The position numbers and the translations under genes were made by a program. A model generated the notes under the pieces. The model was not told the DNA's origin. It saw only the letters and a list, made by a program, of their open reading frames with translations, and did not search any database. From IMG/VR virus record IMGVR_UViG_3300020203_000404, positions 1-64,000 of that record: a stretch of 64,000 nt of DNA. The stretch is one strand, 5' to 3'. The DNA is from a virus. Positions 3,093-15,508 of the stretch are shown piece after piece (position 1 is the stretch's first letter; every line of letters starts with the position of its first letter).

Positions 3093-3109
3093 TGGGGTAC
3101 TATTCTCAC

Positions 3110-3463
3110 ATGCAAGTCAAAGTCTACTTCAATCTACACAAGCGAACGTGGTCTATTCTGCACAAGACTCCGAAGGGGTGGCGGCTGTGGGGTCACTCGC
3201 CGCGTGTGACGCTGGCAGGCGTGACGTGGAAGGTGAGCGAAGCGGGCCGTCAGCGTGTTCTTCGGGAGCGTCGCAAGAACGTCCACGCCTTCGGCATCGG
3301 TATCCTGCTCGACAATGAGAACGCTCCCGAAGGGGAGTTTCTGCCGGTGAAGTACAATCCCTACGAATCGGGTTTCTTTTGCGTGAACGGTACGCCTGTA
3401 CACGCAAGCCGGTTTGCAGTGTTCACGCCCGAAAGACGTGTTTTTGCTTGCCTAAATCCCTGA
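3110..3463 (+). CDS. conserved phage-type protein of unknown function (RVLRERRKNVHAF motif)
   Basis: A basic 117-residue protein with the central motif GRQRVLRERRKNVHAF (about residues 47-62) and a later YNPY motif. From memory, short phage and bacterial proteins with a similar VYFNLHK start and the same NVHAF motif exist, but their function is not known to me. A -10 box TACTAT (3098-3103) ends six bases before the ATG, so the message is predicted leaderless, while the -35 match (TGGCCT) is poor. The terminator just upstream isolates it from the preceding gene. Confidence 0.65.
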   Translation: MQVKVYFNLHKRTWSILHKTPKGWRLWGHSPRVTLAGVTWKVSEAGRQRVLRERRKNVHAFGIGILLDNENAPEGEFLPVKYNPYESGFFCVNGTPVHASRFAVFTPERRVFACLNP

Positions 3464-3481
3464 GGAAGATATACTGAGATA

Positions 3482-3778
3482 ATGAAGTACAGAATCGTCA
3501 AGCACGACAAGCTCAACTGGGCCATTCAAGAGTACCAAGAAGGTGGGGGGGAAATCTCTCGCGGTCCCTACGCCGGTCAGGCGATGCAAGAGAAGTGGAA
3601 GCCCGCCAAGGCGTTCTACCCTTCGCTGCAACGTGCAGCCCTGAACTTGCTCGACATGGCAGCGGGTGATACACTGGAAGCGGGCGAGGCTCAGGGCATC
3701 TTGGATGCCCTCAGGATCGCGGAAACGAGAGTCTTGGAAACGTTACGGGCTATGACACCCGAAGAGGTCGCACGATGA
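3482..3778 (+). CDS. small conserved phage protein, unknown function
   Basis: The 98-residue protein begins MKYRIVKHDKLNWAIQEYQEGG and contains a YPSLQRAALNLLDMAAGD helix. It resembles small phage proteins of the DUF5405 kind from memory, but this is tentative. Its promoter lies inside the 3' end of the preceding gene: TTGCCT (3448-3453), 16 nt, TATACT (3470-3475), then six bases to the ATG. Its stop overlaps the start of the next gene by four bases, so the two are coupled. Confidence 0.6.
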   Translation: MKYRIVKHDKLNWAIQEYQEGGGEISRGPYAGQAMQEKWKPAKAFYPSLQRAALNLLDMAAGDTLEAGEAQGILDALRIAETRVLETLRAMTPEEVAR

Positions 3779-4026
3779 GGTATCGCATCAATTGGACGGA
3801 ATCGGTAGGCTATTCTATCTACGTTCAGGCTGACTCGAAAGAAGAGGCGTTGACGAAGTTCCACGAGGGTGGTTACGAGGCCGACATGTCGCGTGCGTTC
3901 GAGAGTTTCTGCGAAATGCAGGAAGACGCGGAGGCCGAGGAATGCGACGGCTGCAACGGCACCGGCACCACGGGCGGCGGCCCTCCCGGTTCGGCCAGTC
4001 CGTGTGACTGCTGCAACGGTGCGTAA
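3775..4026 (+). CDS. DpnD/PcfM-like N-domain fused to a CxxCxGxG zinc-binding tail
   Basis: Residues 1-30 (MRYRINWTESVGYSIYVQAD with a following KEEAL) look like the short beta-alpha DpnD/PcfM-type domain. The C terminus has CDGCNGTGTTGG and then CDCC, a CxxCxGxG-style knuckle as in DnaJ zinc fingers, so zinc binding is likely. The gene overlaps the previous one by four bases (ATGA). A diverged copy of this gene, including the end of the upstream gene, was reused in the chimera at 13429. Function unknown. Confidence 0.55.
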   Translation: MRYRINWTESVGYSIYVQADSKEEALTKFHEGGYEADMSRAFESFCEMQEDAEAEECDGCNGTGTTGGGPPGSASPCDCCNGA

Positions 4027-4071
4027 CATTCTCTTGACTGCGTGCCATTGTCGCTATATGATAATAGCACT

Positions 4072-4164
4072 ATGGCACGCAAGAAGCACGATCTGCCCAA
4101 GGCTGTTCAGGACATAGCCGCAAAACCCGTTTCAAGGACCGCAAGAGGCAACAACAATGAATGA
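4072..4164 (+). CDS. 30-residue basic peptide
   Basis: A short frame (MARKKHDLPKAVQDIA...) starts nine bases after a TATGAT -10 box, with TTGACT (about 4034) 17 nt upstream of it, so it is the first start codon on a near-leaderless transcript. Its end overlaps the next gene by eight bases. It may be a true small protein or a leader that couples translation to the gene at 4157. Confidence 0.4.
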   Translation: MARKKHDLPKAVQDIAAKPVSRTARGNNNE

Positions 4165-4357
4165 GCGTGTTATCAATTTGCAATTCGACTCTGTCTGCGT
4201 CATCACAACTGAGCAATACGACGCTATCAAGCGTGATCTTGAAATACGTATAATGGTGGACAGTGCTCAGCCGGGGGACCATATCTTGGCACGGCTGTTA
4301 ATCAACGCGGAATATCGCTACCATGAAATCAAGATGCTAGAGAATGTCGTTGACTGA
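4157..4357 (+). CDS. small hypothetical protein
   Basis: A 66-residue acidic protein of mixed alpha/beta character with no motif that I recognise. It follows the 30-residue peptide with an 8-base overlap and has no clear Shine-Dalgarno site, so it is probably translated by coupling. The -35 box of the next gene's promoter overlaps its stop codon. Confidence 0.5.
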   Translation: MNERVINLQFDSVCVITTEQYDAIKRDLEIRIMVDSAQPGDHILARLLINAEYRYHEIKMLENVVD

Positions 4358-4378
4358 TAGCATTTTATGCGATAGAAT
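4350..4378 (+). promoter_or_regulatory. sigma-70 promoter, leaderless
   Basis: TTGACT (4350-4355), 17-nt spacer and TAGAAT (4373-4378), with the ATG at 4384 five bases later. An almost identical copy lies at 4617-4645. Confidence 0.75.
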
Positions 4379-4383
4379 AAAGC

Positions 4384-4620
4384 ATGAAGAACACAATCGA
4401 AAACCAGTGGCGATGGATGGACAGGCTCAAAGCGGGCACGAAGATCGTCACCAAGGGAGATACTTGGATTCTTCCCAAGTGGAAGAATAATCACCTTGGC
4501 ATCAAGTACGCCGAAAGCGTCTTCATCAACGTCAGCACGGGAGACCTGAAACACTATTCTAGGCTCACAGACTTGGAAAAGCCGCCCCGCATTGAGGGCC
4601 ACAGTTCGGTTTTCATTTGA
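4384..4620 (+). CDS. small hypothetical protein
   Basis: A 78-residue protein with two tryptophans close to the N terminus (QWRWMD) and a lysine-rich middle. No domain is recognised. It stands alone between two nearly identical promoters and is predicted to be read from a leaderless mRNA. The duplicated promoter downstream suggests that this gene and the broken one at 4654 arrived by a cassette duplication. Confidence 0.5.
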   Translation: MKNTIENQWRWMDRLKAGTKIVTKGDTWILPKWKNNHLGIKYAESVFINVSTGDLKHYSRLTDLEKPPRIEGHSSVFI

Positions 4621-4645
4621 CTGATAGCATGTTATGCGATAGAAT
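4617..4645 (+). promoter_or_regulatory. duplicate sigma-70 promoter before a broken gene
   Basis: TTGACT (4617-4622), 17-nt spacer and TAGAAT (4640-4645), matching the promoter at 4350 except for a few bases. It drives the gene start at 4654 and probably the beta-helix gene at 4727. Confidence 0.65.
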
Positions 4646-4653
4646 AAAACATC

Positions 4654-4726
4654 ATGAACACACAAACGACCGAAGTCTACAAGGATTGCTTGGGTTGCAA
4701 GTACTGTAATGATGTATCATCGAAAT
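4654..4726 (+). pseudogene. 5' fragment of a cysteine-containing gene fused to a beta-helix promoter
   Basis: An ATG follows the promoter at 4617 and encodes MNTQTTEVYKDCLGCKYC (C-x2-C-x2-C), then the DNA switches to the conserved sequence that normally surrounds the -10 box of beta-helix genes (TAATGATGTATCAT). The frame stays open but reads the beta-helix repeats out of frame as a basic Arg/Asp/His repeat, so the original gene is truncated. The recombination removed the usual TTGACA of the downstream gene. Confidence 0.6.
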
Positions 4727-5206
4727 ATGAGTACCATCACGCACACGAACCCGAACGGCAAGACCGTTCAAGTCAACGTCGGCGAGAACGTGACCATCGG
4801 CGAATACGTGCTCATCTGCGAGAACGCGACCATCGGCTCGCACTCGACCATCGGCTCGCACTCGACCATCGGCAGGAACGCGACCATCGGCTGGAACGCA
4901 ACCATCGGCGAGGACTCGTACATCGGCTCATACTCGATCATCGGCGAGAACGCAACCATCGGCTCGTACTCGTACATCGGCAAGTACGCGATCATCGGCA
5001 AGAACGCGACCATCGGCGAGAACGCGACCATCGGCGAGAACGCGACCATCGGCAAGAACGTGACCATCGGCTCGTACTCGACCGTCGGCAAGAACGCGAT
5101 CATCGGCGAGAACGCGAACATCGGCGAGAACTCGTACATCGTCCGGGACGCGATCGTCGGCCAGGACGCGACCATCGCCCACGGCTCAATCGTCGGCCTA
5201 AAGTGA
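4727..5206 (+). CDS. hexapeptide-repeat left-handed beta-helix protein, copy 6 (23 units)
   Basis: The start MSTITHTNPNGK at 4727 fits the family cap; the earlier in-frame ATG at 4709 adds residues found in no paralogue. It has 159 residues and 23 hexads. Its last units (NSYIVR-DAIVGQ-DATIA) are shared with copy 8, and YVLICE with copy 9. It keeps the -10 box (TATCAT) but the upstream fusion leaves no good -35 box at the right distance, so it may depend on the TTGACT promoter at 4617. It ends GSIVGLK. Confidence 0.85.
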   Translation: MSTITHTNPNGKTVQVNVGENVTIGEYVLICENATIGSHSTIGSHSTIGRNATIGWNATIGEDSYIGSYSIIGENATIGSYSYIGKYAIIGKNATIGENATIGENATIGKNVTIGSYSTVGKNAIIGENANIGENSYIVRDAIVGQDATIAHGSIVGLK

Positions 5207-5213
5207 TTTTTGC

Positions 5214-5241
5214 TTGACGAGCCGCGAGAATAATGTATAAT
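5214..5241 (+). promoter_or_regulatory. sigma-70 promoter, leaderless, beta-helix copy 7
   Basis: TTGACG (5214-5219), 16-nt spacer and a consensus TATAAT (5236-5241), six bases before the ATG at 5248. Confidence 0.8.
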
Positions 5242-5247
5242 TGAAGC

Positions 5248-5853
5248 ATGAAAACCATCACGCACACGAACCCGAACGGCAAGACCGTTCAAGTCAGCGT
5301 CGGCGAGAACGTGACCATCGGCAAGAACGCGAACATCAGCTGGAACGTGACCATCGGCTCGTACTCGACCATCGGCAAGAACGCGAACATCAGCTGGAAC
5401 GTGACCATCGGCTCGCACTCGACCATCGGCGAGCACGCGACCATCGGCAAGAACGCGATCGTCAGCAAGAACTCGTACATCGGCCGGAGTTCGAACATCG
5501 GTGACGGCTCGTACATCGGCAAGGGCTCGAACATCGGCAAGAACGTGACCATCTGCAAGAACGTGACCATCGTCTCGCACTCGACCATCGGCAAGAACGT
5601 GACCATCGGCTCGTACTCGACTATCGGCGAGCACGCGAACATCAGCGAGAACGCGATCATCGACTATGGCGTAACCATCGGCTCGTACGTGACCATCGAC
5701 TTGTACTCGTACATCGGCTCGCACTCGACCATCAGCTGGAACGTGACCATCAGCTGGAACGTGACCATCGGCGAGAACGTGACCATCGGCGAGAACGTGA
5801 CCATCGACCGGGACGCGACCATCGCCCCCGGCTCAATCGTCGGCTCAAAGTGA
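5248..5853 (+). CDS. hexapeptide-repeat left-handed beta-helix protein, copy 7 (30 units)
   Basis: A 201-residue member with exactly 30 hexads, equal to ten turns. It begins with a three-unit block (NVTIGK/NANISW/NVTIGS plus YSTIGK) that is repeated at once, so higher-order repeats of several units exist. Serine often replaces the glycine after isoleucine (ISW). It shares blocks with copies 2 and 4. Tryptophan units (WN) and tyrosine units (SY) would put aromatic side chains at the helix corners. Function unknown. Confidence 0.88.
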   Translation: MKTITHTNPNGKTVQVSVGENVTIGKNANISWNVTIGSYSTIGKNANISWNVTIGSHSTIGEHATIGKNAIVSKNSYIGRSSNIGDGSYIGKGSNIGKNVTICKNVTIVSHSTIGKNVTIGSYSTIGEHANISENAIIDYGVTIGSYVTIDLYSYIGSHSTISWNVTISWNVTIGENVTIGENVTIDRDATIAPGSIVGSK

Positions 5854-5860
5854 TTTTTGC

Positions 5861-5888
5861 TTGACAGACCGCGAGAATGATGTATCAT
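5861..5888 (+). promoter_or_regulatory. sigma-70 promoter, leaderless, beta-helix copy 8
   Basis: TTGACA (5861-5866), 16-nt spacer and TATCAT (5883-5888), six bases before the ATG at 5895. Confidence 0.8.
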
Positions 5889-5894
5889 TAAAAC

Positions 5895-6338
5895 ATGAAA
5901 ACCATCACGCACACGAACCCGAACGGCAAGACCGTTCAAGTCAGCGTCGGCGAGAACGTGACCATCGGCGAGAACGCGATCATCGGCGAGAACGTGACCA
6001 TCGGCGAGGACTCGTACATCGGCGAGAACGCGATCATCGGCCCGCACTCGACCATCGGCTCGCACTTGACTATCGGCAGGAACGCGACCATCGGCGAATA
6101 CGCGAACATCGTCGATGGTTCGCACGTCGGCTCGTACTCGACCATCGGCGAGAACGTGACCATCTACGAGAACGCGATCATCCGCGAGCACGCGACCATC
6201 GGCAAGAACGCGATCATCCGCGAGCACGCGAGCATCGGCAAGAACGCGACCATCGGCAAGAACTCGTACATCGTCCGGGACGCGATCGTCGGCCAGGACG
6301 CGACCATCGCCCCCGGCTCAATCGTCTGCTCAAAGTGA
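5895..6338 (+). CDS. hexapeptide-repeat left-handed beta-helix protein, copy 8 (21 units)
   Basis: A 147-residue member with 21 hexads (seven turns). Its centre reproduces a block of copy 4 (NATIGE-YANIVD-GSHVGS-YSTIGE) and its end a block of copy 6 (NSYIVR-DAIVGQ-DATIA), so it reads as a mosaic of two neighbours. Units with arginine at the second variable position (NAIIRE, twice) are special to this copy. It ends APGSIVCSK. Confidence 0.88.
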   Translation: MKTITHTNPNGKTVQVSVGENVTIGENAIIGENVTIGEDSYIGENAIIGPHSTIGSHLTIGRNATIGEYANIVDGSHVGSYSTIGENVTIYENAIIREHATIGKNAIIREHASIGKNATIGKNSYIVRDAIVGQDATIAPGSIVCSK

Positions 6339-6345
6339 TTTTTGC

Positions 6346-6373
6346 TTGACAGACCGCGAGAATAATGTATAAT
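6346..6373 (+). promoter_or_regulatory. sigma-70 promoter, leaderless, beta-helix copy 9
   Basis: TTGACA (6346-6351), 16-nt spacer and TATAAT (6368-6373), six bases before the ATG at 6380. Confidence 0.82.
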
Positions 6374-6379
6374 TGAAGC

Positions 6380-6715
6380 ATGAAAACAATCAAATACACG
6401 AACCCGAACGGCAAGACCGTTCTGGTCAGCGTCGGCAAGAACGCGATCATCGGCAAGAACGCGATCATCGGCGAGAACGTGACCATCGGCGAATACGTGC
6501 TCATCTGCGAGAACGTGACCATCGGCTCGAACGCAACCATCGGCTATGGCGTAACCATCTGCGAGAACGCGACCATCGCCGACGGCTCAACCGTCGGCGA
6601 GCACGCGACCATCGGCGAGCACGCGACCATCGGTAAGGACTCGTACATCGGCGAGCACGTGACCATCGGCGTCGGTTCGAACATCGGCGAGGGCTCGACC
6701 ATCGGCTTCGAGTGA
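6380..6715 (+). CDS. hexapeptide-repeat left-handed beta-helix protein, copy 9 (15 units)
   Basis: A 111-residue member with the slightly diverged cap MKTIKYTNPNGKTVLVSVGK and 15 hexads. It is the last of the contiguous array and has its own C terminus (GSTIGFE). The VLVSVG version of the cap is shared with copies 10 and 11, which sit among the cassette genes at 8.9 and 12.7 kb, so this copy may link the two groups. Confidence 0.88.
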   Translation: MKTIKYTNPNGKTVLVSVGKNAIIGKNAIIGENVTIGEYVLICENVTIGSNATIGYGVTICENATIADGSTVGEHATIGEHATIGKDSYIGEHVTIGVGSNIGEGSTIGFE

Positions 6716-6791
6716 CGCACGAGCTTGCCCTGTAGAGCCACACGCGGGTCTCGCGGTCTGTCAAGCCTTATTCGCAAGCATGGGGTCGATG

Positions 6792-6819: not shown

Positions 6820-6950
6820 CTATTTCAAGCGTACTAGAAACGCATTTAAAATAATTCAGCGGTTCTGTCAAAACACTTACAGTACAAAGCTCGGCGATCT
6901 CTGGGATTTTCTTACACTTACTTACTGTCGAGCTAAAAATAACCGTGGCC

Positions 6951-7008
6951 GCCAGAACGGCAGCCGGAAAGATTTTCCTGCCAGAACGGCAGCCGGAAAG
7001 ATTTTCCT
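6951..7008. repeat. two tandem 29-bp repeats with internal palindromes
   Basis: Two identical units (6951-6979, 6980-7008) contain GCCG...CGGC and GGAAA...TTTCC dyads. The block, with the preceding GAGCTAAAA...CCGTGGCC, recurs at about 14561-14640. It does not code and could be a protein-binding iteron or operator. Confidence 0.7.
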
Positions 7009-7025
7009 GCTTGCCCCGTGGAGCC

Positions 7026-7123
7026 CTAGGGCGTTGCGTGCTGCTAGCACGCTCGCCCTAGATAGCTAAGCTAGGCACGTTTTTTTAGCGTGCAAGGGGC
7101 GAGCCCGTAGGCCGCCCCGCAGC
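7026..7123 (-). repeat. inverted copy of the intergenic hairpin element
   Basis: In reverse orientation this contains the CGTGC/GCACG hairpin and the GC hairpin found after cassette genes. Its large hairpin has a different sequence (outer CTAGGGCG/CGCCCTAG, inner GCGTGCT/AGCACGC, GCT loop) but the same two-stem architecture as the direct copies, which supports selection on structure. Confidence 0.65.
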
Positions 7124-7290
7124 CTTGTGCGTTACATGCCGGACGCCGCGACAATCACGACTAGGCCGGTTGCCACAGCTTTTTCAAGTTACTATTCGCC
7201 CTAGTAAGATAGCACACTATCGTTAGAATGCAAGCTGAAAAAAAAAGATTATTCACCTCGTCTTCCTGTCATTCCGTGGTATCATAGGGC

Positions 7291-7923
7291 ATGAATAACG
7301 CGACAACGTCCAGCCTAATGAGTATCGTAGGGGGGCTTTCCAAGCCCTCCAAGATGCCGGGATTCGGCTACGGGCTTTCGGCTCTCGATTGCAAGGTTGG
7401 CCGCCTACTCCGCAAGGTAGAAGGTTCAACGTGCGGATCGTGCTACGCTTTGAAAGGTAGGTATTCCTTTCCGAATGTGAAAAAAGCACACGCCCGTCGT
7501 CTGGAAAGCCTTTCCAATCCGCATTGGGAGGCTGCCATGACGGAACTTATTTCCCGCAAGGCGAAAAAGGTTCCGTTCTTCCGCTGGCACGATTCTGGCG
7601 ATCTCCAGAGCGTGGAACACCTTTCCATGCTCGTTAGGATCGCGAAAAACCTTCCGCAAGTGTCATTCTGGATTCCAACACGCGAAAACGTGATGGTGAA
7701 ACAATTTCTGAATCAGGGTAACACGTTCCCGGACAATTTTACCGTTCGCGTGTCGGCTCCTATGATCGGTCGCACCCCGGAAAAGATTGCCGGAACGGTT
7801 GGCTCCAGCGTGGAAGATTCTTCCGCTTTTCAATGTCCCTCTCCCAAGCAAGGCAATTCTTGCCAGGAATGTCGTTCCTGCTGGAATGGAAAGGTCGAAA
7901 ACGTTTCCTACTCGAAACACTGA
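7291..7923 (+). CDS. phage Gp88-like protein
   Basis: A 210-residue protein with an N-terminal CGSCYALKGRY motif (cysteines near residues 48 and 51), a conserved WHDSGDLQS stretch, an FWIPTRE motif and a C-terminal cysteine group (CPSPKQGNSCQECRSC). These match what I know of the phage 'gene product 88' family found in mycobacteriophages and many other phages. Its role is unknown, although the paired cysteines suggest metal or cluster binding. TATCAT ends five bases upstream of the ATG, so a leaderless start is again likely. Confidence 0.75.
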   Translation: MNNATTSSLMSIVGGLSKPSKMPGFGYGLSALDCKVGRLLRKVEGSTCGSCYALKGRYSFPNVKKAHARRLESLSNPHWEAAMTELISRKAKKVPFFRWHDSGDLQSVEHLSMLVRIAKNLPQVSFWIPTRENVMVKQFLNQGNTFPDNFTVRVSAPMIGRTPEKIAGTVGSSVEDSSAFQCPSPKQGNSCQECRSCWNGKVENVSYSKH

Positions 7924-8014
7924 TGAGGAATGTTCTTCCTACCTAATCGGAATCGTGCTATTTTTTCTCGGTGTCGCTCTACTGGGGCTCATCCTGAAAA
8001 ACTTTCGATCGTGA
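7886..8014 (+). CDS. possible small single-span membrane protein overlapping the Gp88-like gene
   Basis: An overlapping frame encodes 42 residues ending in a clear hydrophobic helix (YLIGIVLFFLGVALLGLIL) followed by KNFRS. The start lies within the last codons of the preceding gene and lacks a strong ribosome site, so expression is uncertain. The hydrophobic helix makes chance less likely than for a random frame. Confidence 0.35.
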   Translation: MERSKTFPTRNTDEECSSYLIGIVLFFLGVALLGLILKNFRS

Positions 8015-8206
8015 GCTAGCGGGCCGATACGCTAGCCTTCTCTGTACGGGCTGGAAACGGCCCGTCCCTGCATGTTAGACGCGAGCCTAAACCCTAAGCT
8101 ACGCGGGCGGGCGGAGAATCCGCCCTAGGCCCGCGTGGGGCCTCACGGGGCAGGCTCGACTTTTTGTTTTTTCCTCTTGCTTTTTCGAGCCTATAGGGTA
8201 TCATAT
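8015..8206 (+). repeat. intergenic promoter/stem-loop element, copy a
   Basis: In order: a hairpin GCTAGCG/CGCTAGC (8015-8036), a GAAA-loop hairpin ACGGGCTG/CGGCCCGT (8046-8065), the two-storey GC hairpin (8102-8135: CGCGGGC with GCCCGCG outside, GGGCGGA with TCCGCCC inside, GAA loop, TAG bulge), a T-tract, and a promoter with TTGCTT and TATCAT. The inverted repeat GGCTCGA/TCGAGCC spans the -35 area. Confidence 0.8.
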
Positions 8207-8208
8207 CA

Positions 8209-8268
8209 ATGTCCAAAGCAATTCGCCCAGGACACCTTTCGACACCTCAACAGGACAAGGTATCATGA
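8209..8268 (+). CDS. 19-residue leader peptide, translationally coupled
   Basis: The first ATG after the TATCAT -10 box opens a 19-codon frame (MSKAIRPGHLSTPQQDKVS). Its TGA overlaps the ATG of the next gene as ATGA. Ribosomes that load on this leaderless start could reinitiate on the downstream gene, which lacks its own strong Shine-Dalgarno site. Confidence 0.5.
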   Translation: MSKAIRPGHLSTPQQDKVS

Positions 8269-8648
8269 ATATCCCGACCGGTATTGAAGTCTCCCGCACG
8301 GAAGCCGCAACGCTCATTCGCAAGGCTCGTGGCATGGTTTCCGTGGTAGTTCGCAAGCGTTCGGACGGTTCGCTCCGTCGGATGAACGGTTTCGCCGCGT
8401 GCAATCTCAGCGACGCCGAACGGGCAGCAAACACGAACGGCACGGGAGCCGCGTTCGATCCGCTCGCCCATGATCTCATCCCATTCTACGAAATGGTTTC
8501 CCAGACGGTCAACGGTTTCCGCGTCGTGAACGGTAAGACGGTCGCCAGCAAGATCCGCCGCACGATCGGAAAGCAATTCCGGAACGTTGCGATCGAGGGT
8601 ATCCTGTCAATCCGCACGGCTGGAAAAACCTACACGGTCGCGGGCTGA
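8265..8648 (+). CDS. small phage protein, SH3-like beta-barrel candidate
   Basis: A 127-residue protein: an N-terminal helix (SRTEAATLIRKARG), a strand pair with KRSDGSLRRMNG, then a FYEMVSQTVNGFRVVNG segment. This order resembles small phage proteins that I recall as SH3-fold-like hypotheticals, but the assignment is weak. It follows the coupled leader peptide and ends just before an 11-bp hairpin that begins the next intergenic element. Confidence 0.55.
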   Translation: MNIPTGIEVSRTEAATLIRKARGMVSVVVRKRSDGSLRRMNGFAACNLSDAERAANTNGTGAAFDPLAHDLIPFYEMVSQTVNGFRVVNGKTVASKIRRTIGKQFRNVAIEGILSIRTAGKTYTVAG

Positions 8649-8656
8649 AAAGACTT

Positions 8657-8863
8657 CCGAGCGGCGACTAGGATTCGCCGCTCGGATACGCTAGCCTTCT
8701 CTGTACGGGCCTGAAACGGCCCGTCCCTGCATGCTAGACGCGAGCCTAAACCCTAAGCTACGCGGGCGGGCGGAGAATCCGCCCTAAGCCCGCGTGTGGC
8801 TTCACAAGGCAGGCTCGACTTTTTGTTTTTTCCTCTTGCTTTTTCGCACCGCTAGGGTATCCT
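8657..8863 (+). repeat. intergenic promoter/stem-loop element, copy b
   Basis: It starts with a perfect 11-bp hairpin (CCGAGCGGCGA/TCGCCGCTCGG, 8657-8685), then a GAAA-loop hairpin, the two-storey GC hairpin (8761-8794) and the promoter TTGCTT (8836-8841), 16 nt, TATCCT (8858-8863). Apart from its head it is nearly identical to copy a. Confidence 0.8.
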
Positions 8864-8868
8864 AAGAC

Positions 8869-9387
8869 ATGAATACCATCACGCACACGAACCCGAACGG
8901 CAAGACCGTTCTGGTCAGCGTCGGCGAGAACGTGACCGTCTGCAAGAACGTGACCATCGGCTCGTACTCGACCATCGGCTCGTACTCGACCATCGGCGAG
9001 AACGTGACCATCGGCCAGAACGCGATCATCGGCGAGAACGCGACCATCGGCTGGAACGTGACCATCGCCAAGAACCCGTACATCGGCAAGAACGCGAACA
9101 TCGGTGACGGCTCGACCATCGGCAAGAACGTGACCATCTCCAAGAACGTGACCATCGGCTCGTACTCGTACATCGGCAAGAACGCGACCATCGGCGAGAA
9201 CGCGAGCATCGGCAAGAACGCGAGCATCGGCAAGAACGCGACCATCGACCGGGACGCGACCATCGACCGGAACACGACCATCGGCAAGAACGCGAACATC
9301 GGCGAGAACGCGACCATCGACCGGGACACGACCATCGGCGAGAACGCGACCATCGACCGGGACACGACCATCGGCCCAGACGCCTGA
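8869..9387 (+). CDS. hexapeptide-repeat left-handed beta-helix protein, copy 10 (25 units)
   Basis: A 172-residue member located among unrelated cassette genes and driven by the cassette-type promoter (TATCCT, five bases, ATG) rather than the TTGACA promoter of the array. The cap is MNTITHTNPNGKTVLVSVGE; 25 hexads follow, many with aspartate-arginine corners (IDRDTTI, IDRDATI), and the end is GPDA. Three near-identical NATIDR-DTTIG pairs mark recent duplication at its 3' end. Confidence 0.87.
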   Translation: MNTITHTNPNGKTVLVSVGENVTVCKNVTIGSYSTIGSYSTIGENVTIGQNAIIGENATIGWNVTIAKNPYIGKNANIGDGSTIGKNVTISKNVTIGSYSYIGKNATIGENASIGKNASIGKNATIDRDATIDRNTTIGKNANIGENATIDRDTTIGENATIDRDTTIGPDA

Positions 9388-9395
9388 GGGGCGAC

Positions 9396-9554
9396 GGGGC
9401 GGCCCACGGGCTCGCCTCTTGCACGCTAAAAAAACGTGCCTAGCTTAGCTACGCGGGCGGGCGGAGAATCCGCCCTAGGTCCGCGTGGGGCTCTACAGGG
9501 CAGGCTCGACTTTTTGCTTTTTCTTCTTGCTTTTTCGAGCCTATAGGGTATCCT
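9396..9554 (+). repeat. intergenic promoter/stem-loop element, copy c
   Basis: A C(CACG)G-loop hairpin (9396-9417), GCACG-CTAAAAAAA-CGTGC (9421-9439), the two-storey GC hairpin (9452-9485, one C-to-T change kept paired as G-U), a T-tract and the promoter TTGCTT (9527-9532), 16 nt, TATCCT (9549-9554). Confidence 0.82.
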
Positions 9555-9559
9555 AAGAT

Positions 9560-9802
9560 ATGAAAACGAACGATCTCAAAAAGGGTACTCGCGTCCAGCT
9601 TCGCAACGGTTGGCATGCGACGATTGCCGACAACGCACGCGGAAACACGCGGATGGCCACGGTTGAGGGTCACTACACCGAAACGGGCTCAGTCTACTCT
9701 CACGATATCGTGCGGGCTCAGGTGGCAACCGGCCTAGTCACGATTGAGCACACCCCCGCTCAGGTGAAGCTCCGCAAGAATGTCGCGGCGTCCGGCGTGT
9801 AA
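9560..9802 (+). CDS. small KOW/SH3-like phage protein
   Basis: An 80-residue protein starting MKTNDLKKGTRVQLRNGWHATI. The 'KKGTRVxLRNGW' beta-hairpin start is typical of small SH3/KOW-like domains. The later SVYSHDIV and IEHTP motifs recall a small hypothetical family common in phages. Five bases separate the -10 box from the ATG, so a leaderless message is predicted. It is flanked on both sides by copies of the intergenic element, as a gene cassette would be. Confidence 0.6.
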   Translation: MKTNDLKKGTRVQLRNGWHATIADNARGNTRMATVEGHYTETGSVYSHDIVRAQVATGLVTIEHTPAQVKLRKNVAASGV

Positions 9803-9815
9803 CGTACAAGACTAC

Positions 9816-9975
9816 GGGGCGGGCCTACGGGCTCGCCTCTTGCACGCTAAAAAAACGTGCATAGCTTAGCTACGCGGGCGGGCGGAGAATCCGCCCTAGG
9901 TCCGCGTGGGGCTCCACGGGGCGAGCCTAGTTTTTTGTTTTTTCCTCTTGCTTTTTCGAGCCTATAGAGTATCAT
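9816..9975 (+). repeat. intergenic promoter/stem-loop element, copy d
   Basis: Same order as copy c: a C(TACG)G-loop hairpin, the A-rich-loop hairpin (9842-9860), the GC hairpin (9873-9906) and the promoter TTGCTT (9948-9953), 16 nt, TATCAT (9970-9975). Confidence 0.82.
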
Positions 9976-9981
9976 TCTGGC

Positions 9982-10518
9982 ATGAAAGCAATTCGCCAAA
10001 CGGCCCTTGTGGCCAAACTGAACGATATCAAGGGGGCGACGTTCGCGACCCTCATCACGGAAACGAATGCCCGTCTCAAGAAGACCGGCAATACTTTCGG
10101 GGACGTTCGCAAGGTATCGCGTGTCAACGTTACGCTAGGCTTCCAATACGAAGCAGCCGTCAACCGTCAACGCACGCGGGAAGGCTCGGAAGCTAACTTT
10201 GAAGCGGCTCCGCGTCAATGGGGCGAACGTATCGCCGGAACATTCCTCGTGCAGCACAAGGACCGGACATACCTTGAGTGCAAGGTGGAGCGTAGTATTT
10301 CGCACGTCTATCTCGATTCGACCGGGAAGGAATTGACCGACGAACAAGTCGCCCCTTTCCTTCCGGCAAAGAGTTCCAGCCGTCAGGATACCGAGAAGGA
10401 AATTCTCGTTCGCGACTACGCTCTCGATTCCATCCGTGGAATCTCTTTCAAGGGCGACAGTTTCCTCATCATGCAGGATAATCCTTCGCCGATCGCGGCT
10501 GAATTGCTGGCGGTCTAA
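9982..10518 (+). CDS. conserved phage protein with an AVNRQRxREG motif
   Basis: A 178-residue protein: a helical N terminus, the motif FQYEAAVNRQRTREGSEANFEA with RQWGERI (about residues 51-83), and a strand-rich C-terminal half. Similar 'NAVNRQR...R.WG' proteins are familiar from phages of several hosts, function unknown to me. The start is six bases from TATCAT. Downstream (about 10534-10560) only the first hairpin of the intergenic element remains. Confidence 0.6.
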   Translation: MKAIRQTALVAKLNDIKGATFATLITETNARLKKTGNTFGDVRKVSRVNVTLGFQYEAAVNRQRTREGSEANFEAAPRQWGERIAGTFLVQHKDRTYLECKVERSISHVYLDSTGKELTDEQVAPFLPAKSSSRQDTEKEILVRDYALDSIRGISFKGDSFLIMQDNPSPIAAELLAV

Positions 10519-10722
10519 TCGCTCACGAGGCTACGGGGCGGGCTCACGGGCTCGCCCCTTGCGTTCTCGTTCGCACGATAATGCGTTCATAGTACGCTTG
10601 AAATAGAAAAAGGCTTGACGAGCCGAGAGCGTATTAGAGCCTAAGGATATTCTCGCGAAATTCCCATTGCCTTTATCCGTCAACGTGGTACTATTCCAGC
10701 GTCCAAACGAAAGGGGCATACC

Positions 10723-11349
10723 ATGCGATTCAAATTCACCGCGAAAAAAGATTATGAAACGGGCGAAATCGGTTGGCAGGATTCGCGTATCCGCTCCCAC
10801 GTATACGGCCCGCTATCCGGTTCGATCGGTCTCGCCCACGATTGTCTTGAACACGCTGCGTTTGATAGCGTCGCGGATGAGATTGAAGCCCATGGGGCCA
10901 TGTACTGGATACGTTACGAAGGCGGATACAATATCGACATGGAAAGCTTTTCCAATGAGTGGACCAGCCTCGTGCAAGGTCTCGCAGAGGAGCCTTTTTT
11001 TCCTACTCCGCCGAAAACTCGCCCCCTGGAAGATTCGATCGAGGAAGATATTTCCACGATCATCGCAAACGGACGTGCCTTGTGCCTACGGGAGTTCCAT
11101 GAGGATTATGAGCGGACCGAGATTGAAAAGGTGGCAAACGTATTCCGGGCCTATTTCCGTCGCGGATACCGTAAGGCTACACGACGCTACAAGGGTCTAG
11201 CGGCGTGCAAGGTTGCGGGCTTATTCTCGGCCTTGGTGAGAGCCTTCGAAGGTCAACGAATCGAGTACAGGGGGCAGGAAATCACGGTCACGGTAAACTT
11301 GAAAACGCAACGGGTTACGGTAGAGGAAAACATTCCGGCAGAATGGTAG
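10723..11349 (+). CDS. hypothetical protein, 208 residues
   Basis: Not recognised. The N-terminal half is acidic with several aromatic residues; the C-terminal half has a basic helix (AYFRRGYRKATRRYKG) and a short beta region. Unlike its neighbours it has a real leader: a TACTAT -10 box about 30 bases upstream and a GAAAGGGG Shine-Dalgarno sequence at a normal distance. It therefore arrived with, or acquired, a different expression unit from the leaderless cassettes around it. Confidence 0.55.
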   Translation: MRFKFTAKKDYETGEIGWQDSRIRSHVYGPLSGSIGLAHDCLEHAAFDSVADEIEAHGAMYWIRYEGGYNIDMESFSNEWTSLVQGLAEEPFFPTPPKTRPLEDSIEEDISTIIANGRALCLREFHEDYERTEIEKVANVFRAYFRRGYRKATRRYKGLAACKVAGLFSALVRAFEGQRIEYRGQEITVTVNLKTQRVTVEENIPAEW

Positions 11350-11359
11350 AATATTCTCC

Positions 11360-11387
11360 TTGCTTTTTCGAGCCTATAGGGTATCCT
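11360..11387 (+). promoter_or_regulatory. cassette-type leaderless promoter without the hairpin part
   Basis: TTGCTT (11360-11365), 16 nt and TATCCT (11382-11387), five bases before the ATG at 11393. Only the promoter half of the intergenic element is present. Confidence 0.75.
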
Positions 11388-11392
11388 AAGGC

Positions 11393-11605
11393 ATGGAAAC
11401 GCAATTCAGTGACGACATGAACACGATCCGTGCGGACGACATGGACACGATCCGTGCGGACGAGATGGAAGAATATTCGTTCATCGCAAGCGAGGAACGT
11501 CGATACAAGGAAGAAAAGGCCGAATTCCACGGCGAGCTCGAAAGCCCGGAAGATATTGCCGAGTACGAGTCATGGCTGGATGGCAATGCTCTGGAATCGG
11601 TCTAG
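11393..11605 (+). CDS. small acidic protein with an internal repeat
   Basis: A 70-residue strongly acidic protein. The segment DDMNTIRA-DDMDTIRA-DEM near the N terminus is an eight-residue tandem repeat that is also repeated at DNA level. Its size and charge are like those of phage DNA-mimic inhibitors (for example anti-restriction proteins), but no sequence motif supports that. It is leaderless by the same promoter geometry as its neighbours. Confidence 0.5.
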   Translation: METQFSDDMNTIRADDMDTIRADEMEEYSFIASEERRYKEEKAEFHGELESPEDIAEYESWLDGNALESV

Positions 11606-11613
11606 GGGGTGAC

Positions 11614-11773
11614 GGGGCGGGCCTACGGGCTCGCCCCTTGCACGCTAAAAAAACGTGCCTAGCTTAGCTACGCGGGCGGGCGAAGAATCCGCCCTAGGCA
11701 CGCGTGGGGCTCCACGGGGCAAGCTCGACTTTTTTGCTTTTCCTCTTGCTTTTTCGAGCCTATAGGGTATCCT
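11614..11773 (+). repeat. intergenic promoter/stem-loop element, copy e
   Basis: Hairpin with a C(TACG)G loop, A-rich-loop hairpin (11640-11658), a GC hairpin with two disruptive changes (11671-11704) and the promoter TTGCTT (11746-11751), 16 nt, TATCCT (11768-11773). Confidence 0.8.
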
Positions 11774-11778
11774 AAGAC

Positions 11779-12006
11779 ATGGAAACGATGAATCTTCAAA
11801 GGAACGACTACAATCTCGCCGGTCTGATCGCCTCGGACTACCATTTGTTCGGCGAGCGGAACCGCTATATTCTCGCTGCGGTTCACACGCGGTTCGAAGA
11901 GGTTACTTGGATGGTATTCGACGCTGAACAAGCGGATGAGATTCTGGGGACGCCCAAGATCATCCGCCAAGATCGCACGCCGGAACTGGCAGTGAAGGGC
12001 CTCTAG
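11779..12006 (+). CDS. small hypothetical protein
   Basis: A 75-residue alpha/beta protein with no recognised motif. A leaderless start five bases after TATCCT is predicted, and a strong terminator lies directly behind the stop codon. It is a complete single-gene cassette with promoter, gene and terminator in 260 bp. Confidence 0.5.
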   Translation: METMNLQRNDYNLAGLIASDYHLFGERNRYILAAVHTRFEEVTWMVFDAEQADEILGTPKIIRQDRTPELAVKGL

Positions 12007-12016
12007 TAGGCTGCCC

Positions 12017-12056
12017 AAGGGCCGGAAACGGCCCTTCTGGGCCTTCCTTTTTTTTG
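12017..12056 (+). terminator. rho-independent terminator
   Basis: AAGGGCCG and CGGCCCTT form a perfect 8-bp stem around a GAAA loop (12017-12036), followed by a run of eight Ts. An identical terminator occurs at 13820. Confidence 0.88.
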
Positions 12057-12173
12057 TGCCTAGCTTAGCTACGCGGGCGGGCGGAGAATCCGCCCTAGGC
12101 CCGCGTGGGGCTCTACAAGGCAAGCCTAGTTTTTGCTTTTTTCTCTTGCTTTGTTTGTAGCAAGGGGTATCCT
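12057..12173 (+). repeat. intergenic promoter/stem-loop element, copy f
   Basis: The TAGCTTAGCTA spacer, the two-storey GC hairpin (12072-12105) and a promoter whose -10 box TATCCT lies at 12168-12173. The promoter spacer has diverged (GTTTGTAGCAAG). Confidence 0.75.
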
Positions 12174-12190
12174 AAACAACAAGGAGACTT

Positions 12191-12547
12191 ATGTATTTCA
12201 AGGAAATCGTAGGACATGTATTGTTAGAAATCTCGTTGAATGACAGAGAAATTATCCTCAAGACCGACAAGGCAACGGCTCGTCTTGAGGCGGTTGGTGA
12301 CTGCTGTTCGCAAGGCTGGATTGACGACCTTGCCGTTTCGGGCACGCTGCCATCCAAGATTGTCGGTATTGAGGACATGTGCCAGTCTTTCAACCTTGCC
12401 GATGACGATAAGAGGTTTGACGAAGGTGACATTGTTGTGGCATACGGTGCCAAGATCGTGACCGAAAATGGTCCGATCACCTTCAATGTCTGGAACAATA
12501 GCAATGGCTATTATGGTTCTGTGTTGTGTTTCTCGGCATCGTACTGA
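12191..12547 (+). CDS. DUF7448-like protein
   Basis: A 118-residue protein with the order strand-'VLLEISLNDREIILKTDKATARL'-'GDCCSQGWIDDLAVSG', which resembles a small widespread family with a DCCE/DCCS motif that I know as DUF7448. Its function is unknown. The start is set by a strong AAGGAG (12181-12186); the predicted leader is only about ten bases, so this is the one cassette gene with both a short leader and a Shine-Dalgarno site. Confidence 0.6.
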   Translation: MYFKEIVGHVLLEISLNDREIILKTDKATARLEAVGDCCSQGWIDDLAVSGTLPSKIVGIEDMCQSFNLADDDKRFDEGDIVVAYGAKIVTENGPITFNVWNNSNGYYGSVLCFSASY

Positions 12548-12555
12548 GGGGCGAC

Positions 12556-12715
12556 GGGGCGGGCCTGCGGGCTCGCCTCTAGCACGCTAAAAAAACGTGC
12601 CTAGCTTAGCTACGCGGGCGGGCGGAGAATCCGCCCTAGGCACGCGTGGGGCTCTACAGGGCAGGCTCGACTTTTTGTTTTTTCCTCTTGCTTTTTCGCA
12701 CCGCTAGGGTATCCT
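12556..12715 (+). repeat. intergenic promoter/stem-loop element, copy g
   Basis: Hairpin with a C(TGCG)G loop, A-rich-loop hairpin (12582-12600), GC hairpin with one outer mismatch (12613-12646) and the promoter TTGCTT (12688-12693), 16 nt, TATCCT (12710-12715). Confidence 0.8.
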
Positions 12716-12720
12716 AAGAC

Positions 12721-12876
12721 ATGAATACCATCACGCACACGAACCCGAACGGCAAGACCGTTCTGGTCAGCGTCGGCGAGAACGTGACCATCGGCTCGTA
12801 CTCGACCATCGGCGAGAACGTGACCATCGGCAAGAACGTGACCATCACCCCCGGCTCAATCGTCGGCTCAAAGTGA
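12721..12876 (+). CDS. hexapeptide-repeat beta-helix protein, copy 11 (5 units, minimal)
   Basis: A complete but very short member: 51 residues with the VLVSVGE cap, only five hexads and the usual SIVGSK end. Fewer than two turns could form, so it may be a deletion product that is no longer functional alone. It uses the cassette-type promoter, while its 3' flank is that of the array genes. It shows that recombination within the repeats contracts the genes as well as extending them. Confidence 0.75.
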   Translation: MNTITHTNPNGKTVLVSVGENVTIGSYSTIGENVTIGKNVTITPGSIVGSK

Positions 12877-12883
12877 TTTTTGC

Positions 12884-12911
12884 TTGACAGACCGCGAGAA
12901 TGATGTATCAT
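12884..12911 (+). promoter_or_regulatory. sigma-70 promoter, leaderless, beta-helix copy 12
   Basis: TTGACA (12884-12889), 16-nt spacer, TATCAT (12906-12911), six bases, ATG at 12918. This is the array-type promoter transplanted into the cassette region. Confidence 0.8.
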
Positions 12912-12917
12912 TGAAAT

Positions 12918-13256
12918 ATGAGTACCATCACACATGTGAACCCGGACGGAAAGACCGTTCTGGTCAACGTCGGCTCGAACGTAACCATCGGCTATGGCGT
13001 AACCATCTGCGAGAACGCGATCATCGGCTGGAACGTGACCATCGGCGAATACGCGAACATCGGCGAGAACTCGTACATCGGCTGGAACGCGACCATCGGC
13101 GAGAACGTGACCATCGGCTCGTGCTCGACTATCGGCTCGTACTCGACCATCGGCCAGAACGCGATCATCGGCGAGAACTCGTACATCGGCTGGAACGCGA
13201 CCATCGGCGAGAACGTGACCATCGACCGGGACACGACCATCGGCCCAGACGCTTGA
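12918..13256 (+). CDS. hexapeptide-repeat left-handed beta-helix protein, copy 12 (15 units, GPDA end)
   Basis: A 112-residue member with the cap MSTITHVNPDGKTVLVNVGS and the GPDA ending seen in copies 5 and 10. Fifteen hexads include the block GQNAII-GENSYI-GWN also found in copies 2 and 5. The cap begins with ACACATGTGAACCC as in copy 5, so 5 and 12 are the closest pair by both ends. Two cysteines occur at unit corners. Confidence 0.87.
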   Translation: MSTITHVNPDGKTVLVNVGSNVTIGYGVTICENAIIGWNVTIGEYANIGENSYIGWNATIGENVTIGSCSTIGSYSTIGQNAIIGENSYIGWNATIGENVTIDRDTTIGPDA

Positions 13257-13264
13257 GGGGCGAC

Positions 13265-13366
13265 GGGGCGGGCCTGCGGGCTCGCCTCTAGCACGCTAAA
13301 AAAACGTGCCTAGCTTAGCTACGCGGGCGGGCGGAGAATCCGCCCTAGGCCCGCGTGGGGCCTCAC
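13265..13366 (+). repeat. intergenic hairpin element, copy h (no promoter half)
   Basis: Hairpin with a C(TGCG)G loop, A-rich-loop hairpin (13291-13309) and the GC hairpin (13322-13355). The element then stops and a different promoter takes over at 13396. Confidence 0.75.
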
Positions 13367-13395
13367 AGGCGATTGTAACGCTAGTGTAAAACGGT

Positions 13396-13423
13396 TTGAC
13401 TCTAGGCTTTTTCGTGGTATACT
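13396..13423 (+). promoter_or_regulatory. sigma-70 promoter, leaderless
   Basis: TTGACT (13396-13401), 16-nt spacer and TATACT (13418-13423), five bases before the ATG at 13429. Confidence 0.75.
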
Positions 13424-13428
13424 CAATC

Positions 13429-13725
13429 ATGGAAAAGACGATCGAAGACACCCGAAGAGGTAGCACGATGAGGTATCGCATCAATTGGACGGAATCGGTA
13501 GGCTATTGTGCCTACGTTCAGGCTGACTCGAAAGAAGAGGCGTTGACGAAGTTCCACGAGGGTGGTTACGATGCCTCGCTCGATGGTTTCTGCGAAATGC
13601 ATGACGACGCGGAGGCCGAGGAAGATCCTGATAAGGAATGCGACGGCTGCAACGGCACCGGCACCACTGGCGGCGGCCCTCCCGGTTCGGCCCTCCTGGT
13701 GGAAAACGACAAGCCTGCCGAATGA
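13429..13725 (+). CDS. chimeric DpnD/PcfM-like protein, prematurely ended
   Basis: The 98-residue product joins three sources. A new leaderless start (MEKTIEDTRRGST) contains the end of the gene at 3482 read in another frame. A near copy of the 3775 gene follows (MRYRINWTESVGY...CDGCNGTGTTGG). A segment LLVENDKPAE then matches the middle of the gene at 15254. The second cysteine pair of the 3775 protein is lost. Where the 15254 gene has TGG (Trp), this copy has TGA, and the homologous tail continues in frame after it. Confidence 0.6.
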   Translation: MEKTIEDTRRGSTMRYRINWTESVGYCAYVQADSKEEALTKFHEGGYDASLDGFCEMHDDAEAEEDPDKECDGCNGTGTTGGGPPGSALLVENDKPAE

Positions 13726-13809
13726 GCGGACATGCGTCACGAATGCGAAACGTGGCTTGGAAGAATATTCGACATCGAGCTTTGCGACCTATTCGAGCGT
13801 AGCCCATAG
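13726..13809 (+). pseudogene. in-frame remnant after a Trp-to-stop change
   Basis: Directly after the TGA the same frame encodes 27 codons (ADMRHECETWLG...CDLFERSP) clearly related to the C terminus of the protein at 15254 (VDMRHECETWLG...ELLKRSLW). It is either a pseudogene tail or, less likely, reached by readthrough. Confidence 0.6.
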
Positions 13810-13819
13810 CGGGCTGCCC

Positions 13820-13858
13820 AAGGGCCGGAAACGGCCCTTCTGGGCCTTCCTTTTTTTT
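13820..13858 (+). terminator. rho-independent terminator
   Basis: The same AAGGGCCG/CGGCCCTT GAAA-loop hairpin (13820-13839) and T-run as at 12017. Confidence 0.88.
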
Positions 13859-13860
13859 GT

Positions 13861-13977
13861 GCCTAGCTTAGCTACGCGGGCGGGCGGAGAATCCGCCCTA
13901 GGCCCGCGTGGGGCTCCACGGGGCAAGCTCGACTTTTTTGCTTTTCCTCTTGCTTTTTCTTTTTCAAGCTATATAGT
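13861..13977 (+). repeat. intergenic promoter/stem-loop element, copy i
   Basis: The GC hairpin (13875-13908) is followed by the promoter TTGCTT (13950-13955), 16-nt spacer and TATAGT (13972-13977). The spacer carries CTTTTTCAAG. Confidence 0.78.
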
Positions 13978-13982
13978 AAAGC

Positions 13983-14408
13983 ATGAAATCACTACTCGAA
14001 AAAGCCATCCGCGTAGCATGCGAATCGCATGCGGGCCAAGTGGATAAGGGTGGGTTACCCTATATCCTACATCCACTTGCGGTTATGTTGAGTCTTCCAT
14101 CGTCGGACGTGAAAGGTCGCATCGTCGCCGTACTCCATGATGTTGTGGAGGACACAAGTACTACACTTGAAAAGCTCGCTGAGTGGCTGCCCTTCGATCT
14201 TCTTGAAGGCGTCGATGCCATGTCAAAGCGTCAAGGCGAGACTAACCGTGCCTATTGGATTCGCTGTAAGGCCAACGAAATCGCGGCACGGGTCAAGGTC
14301 GCTGACATGCTACATAATTCGAGCCCCGAGAGGCTAGCCTGTCTGAGCTACGCGGAGCAAGAATATCTTTCCAAGAAATATGGAGAGGCTCTTGTCTTTT
14401 TCAAGTAG
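13983..14408 (+). CDS. HD-domain hydrolase, MESH1/SpoT-hydrolase-like
   Basis: A 141-residue HD-superfamily protein. HAGQVDKGGLPYILHP (H30), the HD pair in AVLHDVVEDT (H52-D53, with E56-D57) and KVADMLHN (D108, N112) match in order and spacing the metal-binding and catalytic elements of the SpoT hydrolase domain and of small alarmone hydrolases such as MESH1. The expected reaction is removal of the 3'-pyrophosphate from (p)ppGpp, which would let the phage blunt the stringent response (inference). It is shorter than typical MESH1 (about 180 residues). It has a leaderless start, five bases after TATAGT. Confidence 0.7.
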   Translation: MKSLLEKAIRVACESHAGQVDKGGLPYILHPLAVMLSLPSSDVKGRIVAVLHDVVEDTSTTLEKLAEWLPFDLLEGVDAMSKRQGETNRAYWIRCKANEIAARVKVADMLHNSSPERLACLSYAEQEYLSKKYGEALVFFK

Positions 14409-14811
14409 TAAAACTGAACATGGGGGGCGGGCTACGCTCGCCCGAAAACGTTGCCCCTGCTATCTAACAACCTAAATGCGTGAGCCTAAAAGACCTACGC
14501 AAAAGCATGAAATAGCGTTCGCGTGAAATTGCTGGGAGTCTAGCCTAAAACACATACTGTGAGCTAAAATAACCGTGGCCGCCAAAACGGCAGCCGGAAA
14601 AATTTTCCCTGCCAAAACGGCAGCCGGAAAGATTTTCCCGCCGTGTAAGATCTATGTAAAATCCGAGTTTTTACACAATCGTTACGAAACGATTTCCGTT
14701 TCGAACCCGTAACGGTATATCTTTCCGTGTTGGAAAAGTATACTCGTTTGGCTATCCTTTCCAGTATACCCTACCCTTGGCCGATATCAATGTGAAAGCC
14801 TTTCCTATTGT
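14409..14811. other. 403-bp gene-free region with repeats and palindromes
   Basis: No gene is seen. It contains the second copy of the palindromic tandem repeats (14581-14640), a nested inverted repeat (GTTACG/CGTAAC around AAACG/CGTTT, about 14682-14716), and GTATAC elements near 14738-14776. It becomes AT-rich toward the right. It could be a regulatory hub or replication-related site; nothing here decides which. Confidence 0.5.
14581..14640. repeat. two tandem 30-bp palindromic repeats, second locus
   Basis: Units GCCAAAACGGCAGCCGG...TTTTCC at 14581-14610 and 14611-14640 match those at 6951-7008, again preceded by GAGCTAAAA...CCGTGGCC. Confidence 0.7.
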
Positions 14812-15253: not shown

Positions 15254-15508
15254 ATGCAAACGATGATAGTCTGGAACGGCCTGCAAGTTAGAGCCGAAGT
15301 CGAAGTGGAAAAAGTTTCCTACTGGTTCGAGGCGGTGACGTGCCTGACCGACACGGCGTACGAAGTTGACGATGCGGAAGAATTTTCCGCCTTTCTCGTG
15401 CAGCATGACAAGCCTGCTGAATGGGTCGATATGCGTCACGAATGCGAAACGTGGCTAGGAACGTTCGAGGGCCAGCTATTCGAGCTACTCAAGCGTAGCC
15501 TATGGTAA
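15254..15508 (+). CDS. hypothetical protein, parent of the 13429 chimera tail
   Basis: An acidic 84-residue protein whose C-terminal half (HDKPAEWVDMRHECETWLG) is duplicated, with a stop codon in place of tryptophan, in the chimeric gene at 13429. Not recognised otherwise. It is directly downstream of the gene at 15056, and a repeated leader follows it. Confidence 0.5.
   Translation: MQTMIVWNGLQVRAEVEVEKVSYWFEAVTCLTDTAYEVDDAEEFSAFLVQHDKPAEWVDMRHECETWLGTFEGQLFELLKRSLW

Follow-up and report, generated by a model that had tools for sequence, protein, structure and literature searches.

Repeated promoter/hairpin elements as probable junctions of a single-gene cassette array beside the GP88 gene of an uncultured large phage

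The first 64,000 nucleotides of the IMG/VR virus record IMGVR_UViG_3300020203_000404 (hereafter, the window) contain a row of small genes separated by nine copies of a repeated promoter/hairpin element, and this report concerns the structure of these elements and their likely role in the exchange of the genes between them. The contig from which the window was taken is that of a tailed phage of 151.8 kb, which encodes a terminase and a portal protein; the match to a major head protein was weak. The phage belongs to a lineage of uncultured large phages, and nine related contigs were found in IMG/VR by searches with the terminase large subunit (TerL) and with the core of the element. The source contig is referred to below as G000 and its relatives as G001–G009.

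The array has as its conserved left anchor a gene of the GP88 family (7291–7923, Pfam GP88, 3e-28), and this gene and all those that follow are on the + strand. The first cassette genes are one of 127 aa in family F1 with a weak match to phrog_2267 (8265–8648), a hexapeptide-repeat gene of 172 aa with a predicted left-handed beta-helix fold (8869–9387, Pfam Hexapep, 2e-37) and an 80-aa gene without a family match (9560–9802), the latter two with leaderless promoters (see below). Next are a 178-aa cassette gene of family F2 (9982–10518), whose homologues stand beside other genes in the arrays of G006, G008 and G009, and a gene of 208 aa matching phrog_7111 (10723–11349), for which a leaderless promoter was not recognized. 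Further to the right are cassette genes of 70 aa (11393–11605), 75 aa (11779–12006) and 118 aa (12191–12547, DUF7448, phrog_2650), two hexapeptide-repeat genes each with its own leaderless promoter (12721–12876 and 12918–13256), a 98-aa cassette gene of family F7 (13429–13725) and one for an HD-domain phosphohydrolase (13983–14408, phrog_990, 3e-41) that has homologues in G007 and G006.

All nine direct copies of the element that an earlier note on this DNA had described were present on the + strand between 8014 and 13987, and we refer to them as E1–E9. Their repeated anatomy was directly evident. A full element is 170–200 bp long and consists of a variable hairpin module for the 3' end of the upstream gene, a two-storey core hairpin of 53 nt and a sigma70-type promoter. 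The core is near-invariant, with a mean conservation of 95% per column over the nine G000 copies and a copy in G002, and the 5' part comes as three types of module. In the first type, a UNCG/YNCG hairpin is followed by GCACG-CTAAAAAAA-CGTGC, and this pair of hairpins, which the earlier note had given for the element in general, was found in E3 (9388–9563, YNCG loop), E4 (9806–9985), E5 (11603–11783), E7 (12547–12724) and E8 (13256–13435). The other four elements have other hairpins. E6 (12005–12194) and E9 (13808–13987) have the second type, a hairpin with a GNRA loop, GGGCCG-GAAA-CGGCCC, then a T8 run, and E1 (8014–8216, with a ACGGGCTGGAAACGGCCCGT hairpin) and E2 (8674–8874) have the third, a different GAAA hairpin. 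The promoter is mostly TTGCTT-16-TATCCT, as had been described, with TTGCTT/TATCAT in E1; the promoters of E6 and E9 diverge (TTGCTT/TATAGT in E9), and E8, whose hairpins are like those of E7, has the unrelated promoter TTGACT-16-TATACT. Most intervals between elements hold a single gene, although three genes lie between E4 and E5 and two between E7 and E8.

Incomplete and inverted copies were also observed, and those reported at 2638, 7026 and 10534 were as the earlier note had them. Hairpins A and B only are present 3' of a hexapeptide-repeat gene (2638–2690, +), and hairpin A only past the stop codon of the F2 gene that starts at 9982 (10534–10563, +). The inverted element (7019–7125, −) has kept the two-storey hairpin with different bases. 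Two further copies had been overlooked: an inverted right-hand fragment (6720–6751, −) and a promoter-only copy (11354–11392, +; TTGCTT-16-TATCCT-5-ATG) that precedes the 70-aa gene. A tandem motif resembling GCCGCCARAACGGCAGCCGGAAAGATTTTCC was observed on both flanks of the array (6950–7012 and 14570–14640).

The search with a covariance model that the earlier note had suggested was run on 1.31 Mb of this and related phages, with a model of the core built from the nine G000 elements and the G002 copy. It recovered the nine copies with E-values of 1e-17 to 1e-19, as expected by construction, together with the G002 copy, one copy in G005 (E 2e-4) and otherwise weak matches only, including the inverted copy (7019–7071, −; 18.7 bits). 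The exact core sequence of G000 was not found in IMG/VR, and a degenerate core search of that database gave six loci in five contigs. The element had no match in an annotated phage collection, and within the window nothing matched Rfam and no tRNA was detected by ARAGORN.

The spacing of the promoters relative to the genes was directly observed to be unusual. In nine genomes there were 304 strong promoter matches, 220 of which had, no more than 100 nt away, an ATG that opens a reading frame, and in 101 of those 220 the gap from the −10 box to the ATG was 5–6 nt, compared to 0 at that gap in shuffled sequence. In G000, the same gap was found for 19 of the 23 early-arm genes listed and for 0 of 83 genes at 23–110 kb. 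These gaps agree with the ~5–7 nt between −10 box and start codon expected of leaderless sigma70-type promoters. The usual distance from a −10 box to the transcription start would put the start of the message at, or about a base from, the ATG, and with a gap of 5–6 nt the messages are therefore expected to begin at or near the start codon. Most array promoters are thus predicted to be leaderless from this spacing. The exceptions are E1, which has a leader because the gene start is ~50 nt downstream, and E6, in which the promoter is followed by a short leader with AGGAG.

Folding of the 55 nt past stop codons also distinguished the array genes from others. The mean folding energy was −19.0 kcal/mol after array genes versus −10.1 and −8.7 kcal/mol after other genes, and the mean z-scores were −1.6 versus −0.4 and −0.2, in a comparison of array genes pooled from several phages with controls taken from G000 alone. 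Of the tetraloop hairpins, 15 of 24 in the arrays had UNCG or GNRA loops, compared to 1 of 21 among the controls, and such extra-stable RNA tetraloops point to a role of the hairpins in RNA. A T-run directly 3' of the hairpin is found only in E6 and E9, and classical intrinsic termination fits these two elements best; the remaining hairpins may serve to protect 3' ends or to define them. The earlier claim that differences between the elements keep pairing stood for 98% of the core-hairpin cells, including two elements with a change from G-C to G-U at one pair, and failed for three cells that break pairing. A shuffle control for pairing in the core was uninformative because the element sequences barely vary, and RNAalifold gave almost no consensus structure for 12 elements of G009.

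Comparison with the relatives revealed that the position of the array is constant and that its contents are not. A GP88 homologue was found in seven of the eight relatives searched (G003, a fragment of 7.8 kb, was left out), and a variable gene array is present 3' of GP88 in relatives with contigs long enough to show it. The G004 contig ends shortly after GP88, and the first base of G001 matches window position 15854, just past the array. After GP88, the relatives have mostly different genes, with 24 multi-member families versus 175 singletons, counts that come from simple gene calling over the arrays and the stretches beyond and include some non-array and some spurious frames. Part of the order was kept (GP88, F8, F9 and F1 at the left; F20, F21 and F3 in G007 and G009) and part was changed, with F2 preceding F3 in G009 but following it in G006, while F7, F13 and F14 are duplicated or reordered. 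The earlier note had held that its reading would fall if relatives had a conserved gene order and no breakpoints in the elements. This was not what we found, as gene content was directly observed to differ between relatives at the elements.

The comparison of G000 with G002 illustrates this change. An alignment of 8316–8875 of the window to 5040–5602 of G002 spans the F1 gene, beside GP88, and the whole of E2, which is homologous to the sole close copy of the element in G002 (5433–5602), and it ends at the start codon. The gene past the element is the hexapeptide-repeat gene in G000 and a homologue of window 15254–15508 in G002, and the G000 homologue of the kinase gene that comes next in G002 lies at 125.4 kb on the opposite strand. 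Several other G000 elements can also be aligned to the single G002 element, and those alignments end between 39 nt upstream of the start codon and 6 nt past it. For family F2, DNA similarity starts 3 nt (G000/G009), 13 nt (G000/G008) or 45 nt (G008/G009) upstream of the gene start, and one match between G007 and G009 is confined to the 80 nt upstream of two start codons and reaches 3 nt into the coding sequence. DNA similarity between these phages is often lost at a promoter or a start codon. For control families from elsewhere than the array (F5, F11 and F12), similarity reaches 271–277 nt upstream in three of nine pairs, and this contrast with the array genes is suggestive, not clean.

The elements might instead be ordinary regulatory repeats, each a 3' hairpin with a promoter, that were copied within one early region and homogenized there by gene conversion, while gene content changed in some other way. 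Regulation alone would explain the promoter spacing and the post-stop hairpins, and the array order is partly kept in G007 and G009. This explanation does not account well for G002, which has the same element and the same left gene as G000 with a different right gene, nor for F2, which stands behind unrelated DNA in G000, G006, G008 and G009 with similarity that starts at or inside the gene or its promoter. We regard it as rather unlikely.

Sequence comparison of the elements with each other indicated that left modules, core variants and right parts have been combined in every way. With GGTCC or GGCAC on the one hand and CTCT or CTCC on the other, for instance, all four possible pairings are present across E3, E4, E5 and E7. 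The pairwise homoplasy index (PHI) test gave p < 2e-4 over the nine G000 elements, 0.0003–0.01 for the core and promoter alone, and up to 0.006 for G009; this test cannot separate conversion tracts from the exchange of flanks, which leaves room for the gene conversion described above. The elements thus appear as mosaics of one another, and mosaicism between junctions was a direct observation in the contig as assembled. That the G000 mosaic arose during assembly, from reads of several cassettes or strains joined via identical core stretches, deserved consideration, as elements share exact repeats of 125, 105 and 95 nt and the close relative G001 starts just past the array, as if its assembly broke there. 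However, G002 has a single close copy and a junction that cannot arise in this manner, yet its gene content differs, and the separate assembly G009 gives the same pattern. The leaderless spacing and the hairpin statistics are independent of order, and the G002 junction and the F2 comparison are independent of the order of cassettes in G000. We consider an artefact of this kind improbable.

Overall, we propose, with a probability of roughly 75%, that the elements are junctions that join single-gene cassettes into an array, fixed in place beside GP88, and let the genes be exchanged. Each junction would carry an RNA hairpin that closes the message of the upstream gene and, to switch on the next gene, a strong promoter of the host (sigma70) type with a −10 box that ends 5–6 nt before the start codon. 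Most cassettes would be self-contained because they consist of a leaderless promoter, one small gene and a 3' hairpin. Because one junction resembles another, any two could recombine homologously and thereby insert, remove or swap the enclosed gene, and a newly acquired gene would still be expressed since all that is needed upstream of its start codon sits in the shared element. We infer that such recombination caused the changes in gene content and that the cassettes are expressed early in infection. Recombination would probably proceed via RecA and SSB, both of which the phage encodes.

Two other routes by which genes or elements could move were considered. A small mobile repeat, REP-like (repetitive extragenic palindrome), MITE-like (miniature inverted-repeat transposable element) or IS605-type, inserted between genes would be in keeping with the many near-identical palindromic copies, some inverted or partial, and with the OrfB/TnpB-type gene of the phage. 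The copies, though, hold one position, past a stop codon and with the promoter abutting the next start codon, and it is modules that were exchanged, not whole elements that were inserted. We rejected this reading, which we judge very unlikely, as the Y1 transposase profile (PF01797) had no match in the contig. The array also resembles those of integrons, in which site-specific recombination at structured sites would move genes, in that it is a row of single small genes with a structured repeat after each, and the two-stem design is retained in the inverted copy despite its different bases. Typical integron cassettes do not each carry their own promoter, whereas the genes here do. The tyrosine integrase profile (PF00589) had no match in the contig, which may be incomplete, while 14 of 14 control genomes were positive, and the integron reading was rejected as exceedingly improbable.

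Several observations weigh against a cassette array exchanged at its junctions. Compensatory change was seen at no pair of the core hairpin, so the idea that its pairing is conserved by covariation is weak. TTTT occurs within 55 nt of the stop codon in just 7 of 45 array genes, and with U-tracts this rare terminator activity is doubtful except in E6 and E9. The partly conserved array order (F8–F9; F20, F21 and F3 in G007/G009) indicates that shuffling is not free, and intergenic DNA diverges faster than genes, which could alone end alignments near start codons. Few elements of exactly this sequence type were found in G005, G006 and G008 by the covariance-model search. Lastly, because of the exact repeats of 95–125 nt, short-read chimeras could mimic part of the mosaicism and misplace cassettes in G000.

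A possible second form of junction was noted in the same phages. In nine genomes, 704 of 6355 TTGAC/TTGCNT sites had a loose −10 match at 15–18 nt, whereas for the sites looped between perfect palindromic arms of at least 10 bp the fraction was 11 of 11, at 16–17 nt. These palindromes have arms of 10–13 bp with the 3' arm in the promoter spacer, and mostly an ATG 5–9 nt on. Palindromes of this kind with arms of 9–13 bp are located in G005 (40700, 36788, 17307(−) and 3677(−)), G007 (19751, 21278 and 14266), G009 (84614 and 61663(−)), G004 (135534), G002 (147725) and the G000 contig (125851(−)). A single repressor site is unlikely because the arm sequences differ, and as they differ widely the palindromes would be kept for their structure. 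This result is exploratory, since folds were looked at first. It is conceivable, and we suggest it only tentatively, that leaderless hairpin-bounded cassettes are a gene-exchange standard in these phages and that the palindrome is a second junction form, in which promoter and hairpin merge into one compact unit that closes the preceding message and begins the following one. The array promoters had 12 stems of at least 7 bp, compared to at most 8 with permuted 5' regions and spacers. A general link to E1–E9 is not claimed, as GGCTCGA/TCGAGCC pairing that encloses the −35 in a loop of ~25 nt is confined to E1, E3 and E5. The leaderless promoters, the mosaic elements and the palindromes with the −35 in the loop all go beyond the earlier account.

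During these analyses, we noted other features of the genes in and around the array. The gene starts at 3745–3882 and 13438–13575, the latter in the F7 gene, are 93% identical, which we read as a recent copy of a cassette gene. After the F7 gene, a short frame (13732–13809) resembles the C-terminus of the 15254–15508 gene (62–64% over 24–39 aa), as if it were a gene-end remnant of an exchange. The hexapeptide-repeat genes number ~20 paralogues (window 1–6715, 8869–9387 and 12721–13256; contig 133762–140405 (−) and 151396), with an 18-nt periodicity, a predicted left-handed beta-helix and a leaderless promoter each, a remarkable expansion in one phage; no DNA matches to them were found in the relatives searched. 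Elsewhere in the contig (64–151 kb) there are genes for RecA, a PolC-type polymerase, SSB, two sigma-70 region 2 proteins, NAPRTase, GDP-mannose dehydratase and several glycosyltransferases.

Comparable arrangements have been described in other viruses. The haloarchaeal virus HGTV-1 has a promoter-like box and an inverted repeat before most genes of one arm, which were likened to the promoter-early stem-loop (PeSL) elements of T4-type phages (PMC3950731). Our array shares with it a promoter/inverted-repeat motif ahead of genes in one genome arm, but HGTV-1 has an archaeal TATA-type promoter and host, and the likeness drawn here is one of arrangement. In Cluster K mycobacteriophages, the start-associated sequences (SAS) and extended SAS (ESAS) are short repeats by the start codons of varied gene families, about half with an upstream inverted repeat, and their authors interpreted the repeat as a site for translation or for protein binding, with little evidence in favor of a hairpin in the mRNA (PMC3203893). 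A repeat adjoining the start codons of unrelated genes is common to both systems. SAS/ESAS was rejected as an identity for our element because the 13-bp motif was at chance level, with one 2-mismatch match in the window versus 0.64 expected.

The PeSL elements, with which the earlier note had identified the arrangement, were reportedly described in T4-type phages by Arbiol et al. in 2010 and Comeau et al. in 2014. As summarized second-hand (PMC4503421), they combine an early promoter with a stem-loop, lie between small genes of variable content and are dense where genes shuffle. Here too, promoter and stem-loop form one unit between small genes. The elements of this phage differ in their length of 170–200 bp, in having as many as three hairpin modules and in a single core that hardly varies. 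Their promoters are placed for leaderless messages. The best TerL matches among phage records were Slash-like Bacillus phages at 24% identity, with a T4-type record absent among the 12 matches listed, and as TerL is only 24% identical to its nearest records the phage is not T4-type. The PeSL reading therefore holds as an analogy only: the element appears to work like the PeSLs of T4-type phages and does not belong to that group by descent. Promoter/stem-loop gene shuffling would thus extend from T4-type phages to an unrelated lineage of uncultured large phages, which suggests a general solution for trading single accessory genes, and such arrays mark places in metagenomes in which to seek new small accessory, possibly anti-host, genes.

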